Assembly (NCBI GenBank): GCA_030041435.1
Contig: JASHNW010000006.1
Span: forward strand, 1-42,557
Source: Acidobacteriaceae bacterium
GTDB taxonomy: Bacteria > Acidobacteriota > Terriglobia > Terriglobales > Acidobacteriaceae
Length of the DNA: 42,557 bases
Direction: 5' to 3'
The position numbers and the translations under genes are program-made. The notes below the pieces were generated by a model that was given only the letters and a program-made list of their open reading frames with translations, was not told the DNA's origin and did not search any database. Every line of letters starts with the position of its first letter. The first letter of the stretch is position 1. This document shows positions 24,957-29,381 of this stretch, in pieces.

Positions 24957-24974
24957 GATATTGCATGCAATATC
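24957..24974. promoter_or_regulatory. Perfect 18-bp palindrome, candidate TA operator
   Basis: GATATTGCATGCAATATC is a perfect palindrome ending eight bases before the chosen PIN start. Autoregulated toxin-antitoxin operons usually carry such a site, bound by the ribbon-helix-helix antitoxin. Confidence 0.75.
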
Positions 24975-24981
24975 ATTTGTT

Positions 24982-25407
24982 TTGAGACTTGTGCTTGACA
25001 CTTCGGTGCTGGTTGCAGCGGTGCGCAGCTCATCCGGTGCGTCGAATCTGCTTCTGCACCGGGCGATCAATCGCCGATTCACGCTTCTGTTGTCAGTCCC
25101 GCTGATGCTTGAGTATGAATCGGTGCTGACACGCGAAGAGCATCTGAGCGCATCCGGTTTGTCCATCGGGGACGTGAACCTTTTGCTGGACACCCTGGCT
25201 GCAAAATGCGAACCCGTCCGCCTGCCTTTCCACTGGCGTCCGATACTCCGCGATGCGGATGACGATATGGTGTTGGAGGCAGCGGTCAACGGACATGCTG
25301 ACGGTTTGGTTACTTTCAATATGAGAGACTTCTCACCGGTGGCGGCGCAGTTCGGCATCAGCGTCCTGTCTCCGCTTCAGGCGCTGCGCATGCAGGAGGA
25401 AAAATGA
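24982..25407 (+). CDS. PIN-domain toxin of a type II toxin-antitoxin pair
   Basis: A 141-residue PIN domain, by family a metal-dependent RNase. The conserved acidic residues are visible in LVLDTSVLVAAV, MLEYESVLTREE, LRDADDDMVLEAAV and TFNMRDFSP. This is the COG1569-type 'PIN family toxin'. Start TTG 24982 gives the usual short N-terminus and leaves the palindrome as upstream DNA; an in-frame TTG at 24961 would place the operator inside the gene. The stop overlaps the antitoxin ATG as ATGA (25404-25407). Toxin before antitoxin is the less common order. Confidence 0.85.
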   Translation: MRLVLDTSVLVAAVRSSSGASNLLLHRAINRRFTLLLSVPLMLEYESVLTREEHLSASGLSIGDVNLLLDTLAAKCEPVRLPFHWRPILRDADDDMVLEAAVNGHADGLVTFNMRDFSPVAAQFGISVLSPLQALRMQEEK

Positions 25408-25652
25408 GGAAGAATAACTTTGCCCTCCGGGTGCAGAGCTCTCTGCTGGATGAGGCCCGCAAAGTCGCCGAGGCAGAAGGCGTGGCACTGAATCAGCTGA
25501 TCAATGTTGCCCTGGCGGAGAAACTCTCCGCACTCCGCACGGAGAGCTACTTTCGCGAGCGGGCGGTGCGAGCCGATCGCCGCAAAGCTCTCCGGATCCT
25601 CAAGAAAGCCGGCGGAGCCAACCCTCCCATAGCGGGGGACGAGCTCGATTAG
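25404..25652 (+). CDS. Ribbon-helix-helix-like antitoxin
   Basis: An 82-residue protein. NFALRVQSSLLDEARKVAEAEGVALNQLINVALAEKL fits a ribbon-helix-helix DNA-binding domain of the kind seen in HicB/Arc-like antitoxins. The charged C-terminal half is the expected toxin-binding part. It is translationally coupled to the PIN gene through ATGA, and GGAGG lies a few bases upstream inside that gene. It should neutralise the PIN RNase and repress the operon at the palindrome. Confidence 0.83.
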   Translation: MRKNNFALRVQSSLLDEARKVAEAEGVALNQLINVALAEKLSALRTESYFRERAVRADRRKALRILKKAGGANPPIAGDELD

Positions 25653-25701: not shown

Positions 25702-27396
25702 ATGACCCTCCTGAAAGCCGTGCGCGGCACGCGCGACCTGCTGCCGCCCGAAACCGAACTTTGGAACCGCGTCGAAGCCACCGCCCGCCGCGTCTTCGCC
25801 CGCTACAACTTCGGCGAAATCCGCACCCCCATCTTCGAGGACACGCAGCTCTTCGCCCGCGGCGTCGGCGAAGAAACCGACATCGTCTCCAAAGAGATGT
25901 ACACGTGGGAGGACGGCGAGCGTTTCAACGAGCGGAAACTAATCGCCGACTGGGTCAAAACAAACGAGTCCGACGAACCAAGCCGCGTCCAAGGTGGGCG
26001 CGTGAATATTCAAGGAGTTCCGTCATTCCTCGCCAAACTCAAAGAAATCGGCGTTCAACTCCAAGTTTGGCGCGGGGTCAATGCCGGGGAAGAACATCTG
26101 CTTAGCGGCCACGTCGAGCTCGTGAGCTTTCGCCCAAGCGTGTCCTCGGATGCGATAGCGAGCCTTCTAAAGGCCCGTGATCTAGGAAAATCTGATCCGA
26201 CGGGTCAGATTCAGCAGTTCCCCATTCGTCTACGCTTGGTGATTCCGATGTCGGGGGCCGTGAATACGTGGGTTGACCGGAAGGATGTGATCGTAGAACC
26301 ATTCGAGGGGAAATTTTTCGACTCTGCTCAGTCCCTGACGCTCCGCCCGGAAAACACCGCCGGCGTCGTCCGCGCGTACCTCGAGCACAAGCTCGGCGAA
26401 TCCGGTTTGCTGCAGAAGCTCTACTACATCGGCCCGCAGTTCCGGCGCGAACGTCCGCAAAAAGGACGCTACCGCCAGTTCTGGCAAATCGGCGCCGAGG
26501 TCATCGGCCCGCCCTCGGCCGGTTCCGAATCCCCCCTCCGCGACGCCGAAGTTCTCGAAATGCTGGCCAGCTTCCTCGACGAACTCGGCATCGCTGGCTG
26601 GACCCTCACCCTCAACTCGGTCGGCTCCTCCACAGACCGCCCCCGCTACATCGCCGCTCTCCGCGAAGCCCTCCAGGACAAGGCCCCGCTCATGTGCGTC
26701 GATTGCCAGCGCCGCGCCGAGACCAATCCTCTCCGCGTCCTCGACTGCAAAGTCCCCGAAGACCAGCCCATCATCGAGACGCTGCCCCGCATCGCCGACT
26801 ACCTCGACGACGCCTCCGAAGCCCATTTCGCCCAGGTCCTCGCCGCCCTCGACGCCTGCGGCGTGAAGTACGAAGTCAACCCCCGTCTCGTGCGCGGCCT
26901 CGACTACTACACCCGCACCACGTTTGAGTTCACCCACGGCGGGCTTGGGGCCCAGAATGCGCTGCTGGGCGGGGGGCGGTATGACGGATTGTCAGAGATG
27001 CTGGGCGGACCGAAGGCGCCGGGCATTGGATTTGCTATAGGGCTGGACCGGGTCGTCCTGACCCTCCAGGCGCAGGCCGAAGCCGCCCCGCGAAAACCTG
27101 CTCCCGCACTCGCTGACGCCTTCATCGCCCCGCTCGGCGAATCCCTCAACGCCTCCGCGCTCGAGCTGGCCCGCGAGCTGCGCCGCCAGGGCCTCCGCAT
27201 CGAGCTGGGCGACGGTAGCTTCCGCCTCAAAAAATCCTTTGAAATCGGCAACAAGCTAGCCCGCAGCATCGTTCTCTACGGCGAAGACGAACACGCCTCC
27301 GGTATCCTGACGGTGAAGAACTTCGCCACCGGCGAGCAAACCAAAATCCCGCGCGACCAGCTCGCGCAGGCGCTGCAGCGGACAGGAAAAATGTAA
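25702..27396 (+). CDS. hisS: Histidyl-tRNA synthetase with a large in-frame insert
   Basis: A class II synthetase of 564 residues; the family norm is about 420-430. The start AVRGTRDLLPPE and motif 1 region EIRTPIFEDTQLF lead to KEMYTWED (residues 64-71). In normal HisRS this is followed within about ten residues by the LTLRPE element, but here LTLRPENTAG comes at residues 212-221. Between them lie about 135 extra residues with no recognised domain. After the insert the enzyme is canonical: motif 2 (FRRERPQKGRYRQFWQIGAEVIG), the histidine-binding motif VRGLDYYTRTTFE, motif 3 (PGIGFAIGLDR) and an anticodon-binding domain. A second HisRS is not seen here. The start has no visible ribosome site. 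Confidence 0.95.
   Translation: MTLLKAVRGTRDLLPPETELWNRVEATARRVFARYNFGEIRTPIFEDTQLFARGVGEETDIVSKEMYTWEDGERFNERKLIADWVKTNESDEPSRVQGGRVNIQGVPSFLAKLKEIGVQLQVWRGVNAGEEHLLSGHVELVSFRPSVSSDAIASLLKARDLGKSDPTGQIQQFPIRLRLVIPMSGAVNTWVDRKDVIVEPFEGKFFDSAQSLTLRPENTAGVVRAYLEHKLGESGLLQKLYYIGPQFRRERPQKGRYRQFWQIGAEVIGPPSAGSESPLRDAEVLEMLASFLDELGIAGWTLTLNSVGSSTDRPRYIAALREALQDKAPLMCVDCQRRAETNPLRVLDCKVPEDQPIIETLPRIADYLDDASEAHFAQVLAALDACGVKYEVNPRLVRGLDYYTRTTFEFTHGGLGAQNALLGGGRYDGLSEMLGGPKAPGIGFAIGLDRVVLTLQAQAEAAPRKPAPALADAFIAPLGESLNASALELARELRRQGLRIELGDGSFRLKKSFEIGNKLARSIVLYGEDEHASGILTVKNFATGEQTKIPRDQLAQALQRTGKM
25921..26328 (+). other. Insert of about 135 codons inside hisS
   Basis: The segment is open throughout and keeps the hisS frame. 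By hand count bases 25921-26320 are about 54 percent GC, against about 62-65 percent in flanking hisS. The strong C/G preference at third codon positions in the flanks is relaxed here. Predicted pieces alternate helix and strand (GVPSFLAKLKEIGVQLQVWR; SVSSDAIASLLKARDLG; RLRLVIPMSG). There is no intein signature (no Cys/Ser start, no His-Asn end) and no obvious duplication at the joints. Confidence 0.8.
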
Positions 27397-27545: not shown

Positions 27546-29381
27546 TTGCTTGACTTTCTAGGCACCCGCCAACGCACTCATACCTGCGGCCAGCTCCGCG
27601 CCGCCGACGCCGGCCAAACCGTCACCCTCATGGGCTGGGTCAACCGCCGCCGCGACCACGGCAGCCTCATCTTCCTCGACCTGAGGGACCGCTACGGCAT
27701 CACGCAGGTCGTTCTGGATAAAGACCTCGCCCCCGAAGGCCACGCCAAAGCCGAGCAAGCCCGGCCCGAGTACGTTATCTGCGCCATCGGCAAGGTCCGC
27801 CTGCGCGGCCCCGAGTCCGTGAACCCTAAAATGCCCACCGGCGAAATTGAAATCGCCGCGACGGAACTCCTCGTCCTCAACGACTCCAAAGTCCCGCCCT
27901 TTTCCCCCGCCGAAGACGCCATCCAGAACGAGGAAGTCCGCCTCAAATACCGCTACCTCGATCTGCGCCGCCCTGAGATGGCGCACAACCTCGAGATCCG
28001 CCACAAAGTCGCGCTCGCCATGCGCGAATACCTCAACGCCCAGGGCTTCTTCGAGATCGAGACGCCTTTCCTCACCCGCTCCACGCCCGAAGGCGCCCGC
28101 GACTACCTCGTCCCCAGCCGCGTTCACCCTGCGCACTTCTACGCCCTGCCCCAGTCGCCGCAGCTTTTCAAGCAGATCCTTATGATCTCCGGCCTCGACA
28201 AGTATTTCCAGATCGTTCGCTGCTTTCGCGATGAGGACCTGCGTGCCGACCGCCAGCCCGAGTTCACGCAGATCGACCTCGAGATGACCTTCCCCCAGCA
28301 GGAAACCATCTTCCAGGTCGTCGAAGGCTTCCTCAAGGACTCCTTCGAAGTCGTCGGCGAGCAGATCGCCACGCCCTTCCTGCGCATGACCTACGACGAG
28401 GCCATCCGCCAGTACGGCATCGACAAGCCCGACCTCCGCCTGCCGCCCATGACCGACGTCCGCGATGTCTTCACCGCTGAAGAGCTTTCATCGCTGAAGA
28501 TTGAGCCGGGCCTGCCCATCGTCGCCATCGTCATTCCCAACAAGCAGGCGATGAGCAACACGCAGAAGAAGGCCTTCGCGCAGGAACTCAACGCCGCCGT
28601 CGCCCCTGACCTCGCTTACCTCGACGTCGACCGCCTCGCTGCCGCGCCGCAGTATGCTGCCCTTGCGCAGCACATCGACGCAGCCGCCGCCAAAAATTGT
28701 GGCCTCGCGCGCGTCGAGCCGGAGAACCGCCTCATCGTCGTCTCGCCCCGCGTCGGCGCCACAGCCCCCGCCCGCGACCACCTGTGGCTCTACAAGAAAG
28801 CCGGCCAGCTCCGCCTCGATCTCGCCAAACGCTTCCAGGACGAGCACAAGGCCTTCGAGAAAAAAGGTATCAGCGACGATTACAAATTCCTCTGGGTCAC
28901 CGATTTCCCTTTCTTCGAATGGGACGAGGAGACAAAGACGTGGACCTTCGCCCATCATCCCTTCACTTCGCCGCATGAGGACGACCTCATCGCCGGCCGC
29001 ATGACCTCCGATCCCGAGAATGTCCGCGCGCTGGCCTACGACATCGTCCTCAACGGCATGGAACTGGGCTCCGGCTCCATCCGCATCCATCGCCAGGACG
29101 TCCAGCAGCAGATCTTCCGCGCTCTCGGCATGTCTGACGAGGAGGCCCGCGAACGCTTCGGCTTCTTCCTTGAAGCTCTGCAGTACGGCACGCCGCCCCA
29201 CGGCGGCGTTGCCCTTGGCCTCGATCGCCTCGTCATGATCCTCGCCGGAGCTTCGAGCCTGCGCGAAGTCATCGCCTTCCCCAAGACCGCCAAAGCCATC
29301 GACCTCATGGTCGACGCGCCCACCCCGGTCAGCGACGCGCAGCTCAAAGAGCTGCACATCCGGCCGGTGATCCGCAGCTAG
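27546..29381 (+). CDS. aspS: Aspartyl-tRNA synthetase, probably non-discriminating
   Basis: A 611-residue bacterial-type AspRS. The N-terminal OB fold carries RTHTCGQLRAADAGQTVTLMGWVNRRRDHG. The catalytic core shows RYLDLRRPEM, YALPQSPQLFKQ and the motif 2 region FRDEDLRADRQPEFTQIDLEM, a GAD insert, and motif 3 (GGVALGLDRL). The residue before the anticodon-loop contact is His38 (RRRDHG) where E. coli has Leu, a known mark of AspRS that also charges tRNA-Asn. That would need GatCAB, not seen here. Start TTG 27546 fits the conserved N-terminus and has AGGA nine bases upstream. The stop TAG lies at the edge of a MITE-like hairpin. Confidence 0.95.
   Translation: MLDFLGTRQRTHTCGQLRAADAGQTVTLMGWVNRRRDHGSLIFLDLRDRYGITQVVLDKDLAPEGHAKAEQARPEYVICAIGKVRLRGPESVNPKMPTGEIEIAATELLVLNDSKVPPFSPAEDAIQNEEVRLKYRYLDLRRPEMAHNLEIRHKVALAMREYLNAQGFFEIETPFLTRSTPEGARDYLVPSRVHPAHFYALPQSPQLFKQILMISGLDKYFQIVRCFRDEDLRADRQPEFTQIDLEMTFPQQETIFQVVEGFLKDSFEVVGEQIATPFLRMTYDEAIRQYGIDKPDLRLPPMTDVRDVFTAEELSSLKIEPGLPIVAIVIPNKQAMSNTQKKAFAQELNAAVAPDLAYLDVDRLAAAPQYAALAQHIDAAAAKNCGLARVEPENRLIVVSPRVGATAPARDHLWLYKKAGQLRLDLAKRFQDEHKAFEKKGISDDYKFLWVTDFPFFEWDEETKTWTFAHHPFTSPHEDDLIAGRMTSDPENVRALAYDIVLNGMELGSGSIRIHRQDVQQQIFRALGMSDEEARERFGFFLEALQYGTPPHGGVALGLDRLVMILAGASSLREVIAFPKTAKAIDLMVDAPTPVSDAQLKELHIRPVIRS

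Follow-up and report, generated by a model that had tools for sequence, protein, structure and literature searches.

A horizontally exchanged domain with a predicted PD-(D/E)XK nuclease-like fold inserted in histidyl-tRNA synthetases of Acidobacteriaceae

The 42,557-nucleotide contig JASHNW010000006.1 of an Acidobacteriaceae bacterium (assembly GCA_030041435.1), hereafter the window, contains the hisS gene for histidyl-tRNA synthetase (HisRS), which carries a long in-frame insert (Table 1). The TIGR00442 model matches the gene as two pieces in one open reading frame (ORF; model positions 2-68 and 67-405), which pass the cut-off jointly. The insert comprises 138 residues between D71 and Q210, where all eight insert-free hisS genes extracted from the same genus have the nine residues R(A/G)RAQSEKS, the net excess being approximately 129 residues. 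In the alignment to E. coli HisRS (1kmm chain sequence) the gap falls at positions 73-75, directly before SLTLRPE. The GC content of the insert is 0.55, compared to 0.66 in the remainder of the gene, and at fourfold degenerate sites it is 0.66 compared to 0.89 in the core. The insert in the window HisRS is real, confirming an earlier note on this DNA, made from the sequence alone, that had described some 135 residues of lower GC and different codon use in place of about ten. The second hisS gene which that note proposed to look for does not exist, as no other place in the whole genome beyond 25702-27396 passes the hisS cut-off. There is no credible second copy of the insert in this genome either, the two weak protein matches having E-values of 0.02 and 0.5. 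Elements of the Rickettsia palindromic type occur in several copies per genome and consist of palindromic DNA; a repeated in-frame element of this kind was considered and rejected, given the lack of a second genomic copy and the inverted repeats of just 9-12 nt.

Table 1. Features of hisS, its insert and the adjacent genes, in coordinates of the window (pLDDT, predicted local distance difference test; pTM, predicted template modelling score).
Feature	Coordinates	Strand	Basis
hisS, histidyl-tRNA synthetase, 564 residues, single copy	25702..27396	+	family match of the core before and after the insert
Inserted domain, residues 72-209, replacing the 9-residue loop of insert-free relatives	25915..26328	+	AlphaFold2 model of the domain with short flanks, mean pLDDT 79.9, pTM 0.76
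First helix of the domain, residues 77-88, with a Trp present in 30/30 aligned inserts	25930..25965	+	DSSP of the model; alignment
Strand GHVELVSF, residues 136-143; E139-L-V141 at the (D/E)-x-K position of active PD-(D/E)XK nucleases	26107..26130	+	model; alignment
Second long helix of the domain, residues 149-163	26146..26190	+	model
Second strand conserved across the family, RLRLVIPM, residues 175-182	26224..26247	+	model; alignment
QSLTLRPENTAG, point where the HisRS core resumes	26329..26364	+	
PIN_3 toxin-like and CopG/HicB-like antitoxin genes, just upstream of hisS	24961-25652		antitoxin matches below Pfam cut-offs
aspS, usual downstream neighbour (context)	27546..29381	+	tblastn

Searching 40 relatives with the window insert alone yielded nothing; among the same relatives the hisS model splits the genes of genomes G004, G008 and G021 at the same point. 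In a first sample of 200 Acidobacteriaceae genomes, 180 had a hisS match at E 1e-20 or better, and 16 of these had confirmed inserts of approximately 110-140 residues. Thus, as the earlier note had suggested checking, related species do lack the insert, which is sporadic rather than universal. Two or more hisS matches were found in 24 genomes, of which 17 were re-searched, four were already known, and three (G019, G111 and G193) were skipped, their best match being almost full-length. Profile A2 was derived from 16 genomes, all of them among the 32 that it later matched when run against 398 genomes assigned to the family by named records; these 32 matches were distributed over 14 of the 79 genera. 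Complete inserts could be read out in 30 of the 32, every one at this hisS loop; the exceptions were G253, a weak match interrupted by a stop, and G359, at a contig end. A further search, of genus g42, gave inserts in 4 of 62 genomes and thereby two new ones, bringing the total to 32 complete inserts. When named genomes were searched for the junction, 27 stretches matched; the ten that could be confirmed were all hisS, in metagenome-assembled genomes (MAGs) of Acidobacteriaceae, an Acidobacterium MAG, an acidobacterial MAG lacking a family name, and two records of Granulicella, including Granulicella sp. dw_53.

Outside the family, profile A7 applied to 396 genomes across the phylum gave strong matches only in G000 and G021, and four weak matches at E 0.006-0.008 (three outside the family, one in the window genome) were taken as noise. 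The family and phylum profile searches scored no more than 11 of the first-look candidates in each genome, frequently one third; among these scored candidates there was no credible stand-alone copy or copy outside the family, which does not prove absence. None of 21 genomes checked outside the family (20 with several hisS matches, and G040) had hisS split at this site. In two acidobacteria outside the family the HisRS matches are split elsewhere (G461:C16 at model 198/219, G722:C6 at 244/211). Plasmids yielded three matches in Rhizobium, at E 0.006, and the one that was read (H1) is on our reading antisense to an ABC-transporter-like ORF; phage sequences gave no match to the domain, and among viral contigs searched with a pattern from A3 none was confirmed.

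In most of the insert-free family genes read, the loop is near RARAQSEKxQ. This uniformity suggests that the empty allele did not arise as a series of independent deletion scars but would be an ancient alternative. At the same site G195 (L211 / L079) has a 25-residue loop ending in VLEVASGTRGRFSGQS, by eye similar to the tail of a deleted insert, while other, shorter extras of 36-49 residues as cut by the search patterns (L204 in G211, L205 in G134, L017 in G015, L023 in G017) appear by eye unrelated to the inserted domain. As for gene number, G111 has two full-length hisS matches (L214, L215), and G019:C81 (L216) is a second match (model 1-128, ORF of 230 residues) in a genome with a full-length insert-free hisS elsewhere; 20 genomes of the first sample had no hisS match at E 1e-20, including G086 (listed as 100% complete), probably due to assembly gaps.

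An in-frame insertion in an essential gene could be an intein, an intron or an assembly artefact. Inteins have splicing blocks and a terminal His-Asn; neither Pfam nor NCBIfam gave an intein or Hint model for 30 inserts, and the junctions have no terminal His-Asn, in agreement with the earlier note; there was no intron match in Rfam. Inserts lie inside contigs of 2.4 and 2.6 Mb (G199, G330) and in the Granulicella sp. dw_53 record, arguing against an artefact, and we consider this entire group of explanations hardly credible.

The inserts fall into 17 classes, many pairs being 10-20% identical. We built profiles leaving out one class at a time, with the shared flanks removed, and ranked the held-out inserts against decoys (298 unrelated proteins and shuffles). 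Every held-out class ranked above unrelated proteins and shuffles, mostly at E 1e-6 to 1e-17, with weak values for G021 (8e-4), G151 (1e-3), G074 (0.017) and G765 (0.029). When six outliers (G021, G049, G268, G074, G130 and G151) were withheld jointly, G130 alone had a clear match (8.5e-5), four others were above the best decoy at E 0.017-0.34, and G151 was below it. As 31 further complete inserts occupy the same site, and held-out-class profiles rank the classes above decoys, the window insert is more than a chance event. Searched against libraries, the 30 inserts matched no named family: the best E-values were 0.0024 in Pfam, 0.056 in NCBIfam, 0.012 in PHROGs and 0.033, in one insert, among the PADLOC models of known anti-phage defence proteins, and these values were scattered over unrelated families, each matched by one or two of the inserts. 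The window insert itself matched no Pfam family, and PDB sequences gave one match at E 1. The insert is one case of an undescribed domain family; lacking a name in four libraries, the domain would merit a new one, and among the literature matches listed, within the text that they offer, no description of such a HisRS insert was found.

The statement of the earlier note that the insert matches no recognisable domain holds for named sequence families and fails for the fold. AlphaFold2 predicts that the insert folds as an autonomous domain, and the best structural matches of the model are NucS/EndoMS (the top three) and XisH, both PD-(D/E)XK nucleases; families missing from this match list are not thereby excluded. 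The PD-(D/E)XK fold has an alpha-beta-beta-beta-alpha-beta core, which the predicted model reproduces. The best reading of the model is a self-contained accessory domain with a putative PD-(D/E)XK fold, similar to NucS and XisH. Activity of such nucleases depends on a catalytic triad of an acid and (D/E)-x-K, and this triad is not conserved here: the aligned Lys column is occupied by V in 27, I in two and F in one of 30 inserts, and the window insert has E-L-V. Only G074 has ELK, three columns on from that column. Judging by these residues, nuclease catalysis has probably been lost.

Inserts move independently of the enzyme core. For all 24 insert-bearing HisRS the nearest core belongs to the same genus, and for 15 of the 24 the nearest insert belongs to another genus, bearing out the suggestion of the earlier note that the domain was transferred. 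The window insert shares 67% identity with its counterpart in G764 (genus g42) and at most 26% with any insert of its own genus; between the G764 insert and those of G330 and G366, which belong to the same genus as G764, identity is 33-35%. In same-genus pairs the cores are 82-94% identical and the inserts 17-75%. Approximately unbiased (AU) tests on the insert data rejected a single clade for genera g1 (p 2e-7), g9 (1e-145), g72 (5e-7) and g7 (1e-4), and tests on the core data rejected the six pairs suggested by the inserts (p 5e-4 to 2e-53). On the 55-row core tree presence and absence require at least 16 changes (18 on an earlier 67-row tree), the rows of these trees not being random samples; the truncated genes of G373 and G290 were left out. 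In six cross-genus pairs we observed no clearly closer stretch of flank at the insert edge, and no cross-genus inserts are near-identical, the best pair reaching 72%. As there is no flank tract of recent transfer between genera, the classes appear old and little of the exchange recent.

Synonymous and nonsynonymous changes (Nei-Gojobori counts) distinguish replacement of the insert from fast change in place. In same-genus pairs with inserts of different classes the silent distance is much higher in the insert than in the core (0.80 vs 0.22 for G312/G348, 0.75 vs 0.44 for G338/G383), hence the insert was replaced and did not only change rapidly. In the same-genus pair G163/G220 the silent distances are similar (0.54 and 0.44), and the ratio of nonsynonymous to synonymous rates (dN/dS) is 0.51 in the insert vs 0.08 in the core. 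For inserts of one class in different genera dN/dS is 0.12 (G163/G184), 0.11 (G162/G409) and 0.17 (G047/G326); in many other pairs the insert dS is saturated and the ratio not computable. The window and G764 inserts differ at a proportion of 0.21 of nonsynonymous (pN) and 0.80 of synonymous sites (pS), and cross-genus inserts of one class retain 67-72% protein identity at pS 0.63-0.80. Thus, the protein sequence has been kept while silent sites strongly diverged, and purifying selection acts within an insert class. The same numbers speak against a tolerated passenger, that is, a loop which accepts in-frame sequence and a domain without function in the cell. Such a loop might also hold other extras, as seen in G015, G017, G134 and G211, but one constrained domain family in 32 genomes would not be expected, and this explanation is distinctly improbable.

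A homing-like selfish element would be a nuclease domain that once cut insert-free hisS and was copied by repair, staying in frame without splicing, most copies now being inactive relics. This is consistent with the predicted nuclease fold, the single fixed site, the patchy presence, the ELK triad of G074, the loop of G195 and the low-GC composition: at fourfold sites the insert is below the core in 30 of 30 cases, and in 27 of 30 below all core windows of the same length that were tried. However, the canonical Lys is absent from the aligned column in all 30 aligned inserts, and a relic should decay or show recent near-identical spread, whereas the inserts are constrained within classes and no near-identical copies link genera. 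We therefore regard homing as unlikely; of the selfish element and the transferred domain, both options of the earlier note and both still viable, the data favour the latter, under diversifying selection.

The third possibility, a tRNA- or substrate-related domain added to the enzyme to tune aminoacylation or sense stress, similarly to the insertion domains of other synthetases, would agree with the position just before the SLTLRPE strand and with a constrained domain that is folded in the model. Yet it was not found in most relatives, and 17 classes, many pairs of which are 10-20% identical, should not be needed for one conserved reaction. The cores do not co-vary with it either: a permutation test over seven genera found none of the core residues enriched where the insert is present (p 0.92), and the strongest depletion, at -3.42, likewise stays within what permutation produces (for enrichment the 95% point is 3.88). 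Its probability is low, similar to that of homing.

The earlier note had also suggested a tie to the toxin-antitoxin pair adjacent to hisS. By tblastn at E 1e-3 the window antitoxin has a match beside hisS at two insert-bearing loci, those of the window and of G008, out of 27, and at none of 14 insert-free ones. The G008 antitoxin is 84% identical to that of the window, the PIN match there covering just 36 residues. Both antitoxin-bearing loci have inserts, but 25 of the 27 insert-bearing loci lack the antitoxin, so the pair was rejected as a general partner, and an insert that is a module of it is very improbable. In the same neighbourhoods tblastn located aspS at 24 of the 27 loci with an insert and at 12 of the 14 without one, some contigs ending early.

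Our preferred explanation, tentative and with the balance of probability slightly against it, is that the insert is a self-contained binding domain with many old alleles and an empty one, probably kept by conflict with something acting on HisRS. Placed in a hairpin that follows motif 1 and precedes the ATP-site strand in the only HisRS of the cell, the accessory domain would stay in the mature enzyme and may work as a module binding protein or nucleic acid, altering what can bind HisRS or its tRNA. Its most likely role would be to shield HisRS from an antagonist, e.g. a phage protein or a delivered toxin, or to tie it up, and pressure from the antagonist might keep many old divergent alleles and the empty allele circulating via recombination at one loop. 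We lean to conflict because numerous old alleles, divergent but constrained within each class, together with an empty allele and with exchange at a single loop, fit an antagonist that targets a surface. A more specific version, in which HisRS of Acidobacteriaceae is a battleground and the exchangeable pseudo-nuclease domain a multi-allele immunity module, the empty allele included, against an undiscovered phage protein or toxin acting on HisRS or tRNA-His, is conceivable but rather doubtful.

Several observations weigh against conflict around a catalytically dead domain. No antagonist or partner has been identified, no neighbour but aspS is common to most insert-bearing loci (ORF clustering overlooks some genes), and among the literature matches listed, in the text available from them, no phage or toxin action on HisRS was found. 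A selfish element is also expected to show fast divergence and horizontal exchange, dN/dS exceeds 1 in no pair with computable dS, the g71 inserts group by genus (clade support 85/81), and insert and core identities are partly coupled (Spearman 0.34 over all pairs). The fold comes from one AlphaFold2 model from 11 sequences, Foldseek against PDB and viral models gave no match at E 0.001 or better, and the full-length model has low confidence in the core (mean pLDDT 62), so that it does not give the placement of the domain relative to tRNA. As for catalysis, 15 of 30 inserts, including that of the window, have Arg at the Lys column of G074, a possible stand-in, and a D...(D/E)xK string is present somewhere in the domain in 13 of 32 inserts.

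Synthetases are often taken as conserved and mostly vertically inherited, and here one HisRS loop recalls in its behaviour a defence gene or a polymorphic surface antigen. If selection maintains the alleles, something attacks or uses HisRS in these soil bacteria, and an immunity locus would be embedded in a housekeeping synthetase; as the domain occurs in a record named Granulicella sp. dw_53, exchanging the alleles may be open to experiment. The only hint we saw of hisS under attack, in the portion of the source available, is a spacer of a CRISPR (clustered regularly interspaced short palindromic repeats) array matching hisS in Pelobacter carbinolicus (PMC2923632).

Among known systems, the NucS/EndoMS nuclease domain shares the predicted fold, and in several insert classes an acidic residue is retained ahead of the Glu strand, e.g. 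IDLECKDHDGNLEYV in G004; the inserts differ in lacking the canonical Lys at the aligned column (30 of 30) and any Pfam or PDB sequence match to it, and in lying within a tRNA synthetase. XisH, the fdxN element excision controlling factor, is free-standing, with chains of 128-129 residues, and has no sequence match to the inserts; in the Pfam scan neither NucS nor XisH models were matched, the best hit being to an unrelated family in one member. Inteins and homing endonucleases occur in frame at one fixed site in an essential gene, are patchy and are horizontally exchanged. The HisRS insert has all these properties but no detected splicing signature, and it has lost the canonical catalytic residue. 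The nearest concept is that of segmentally variable genes, which include the inserted domain of ProRS (PMC387263); as far as the available part of that source describes them, a conserved enzyme has one variable segment, which is sometimes missing. Similarly, hisS has a long variable segment between conserved parts, but here the segment has a predicted nuclease-type fold, was detected in 32 of 398 sampled family genomes, and its alleles are exchanged between genera.
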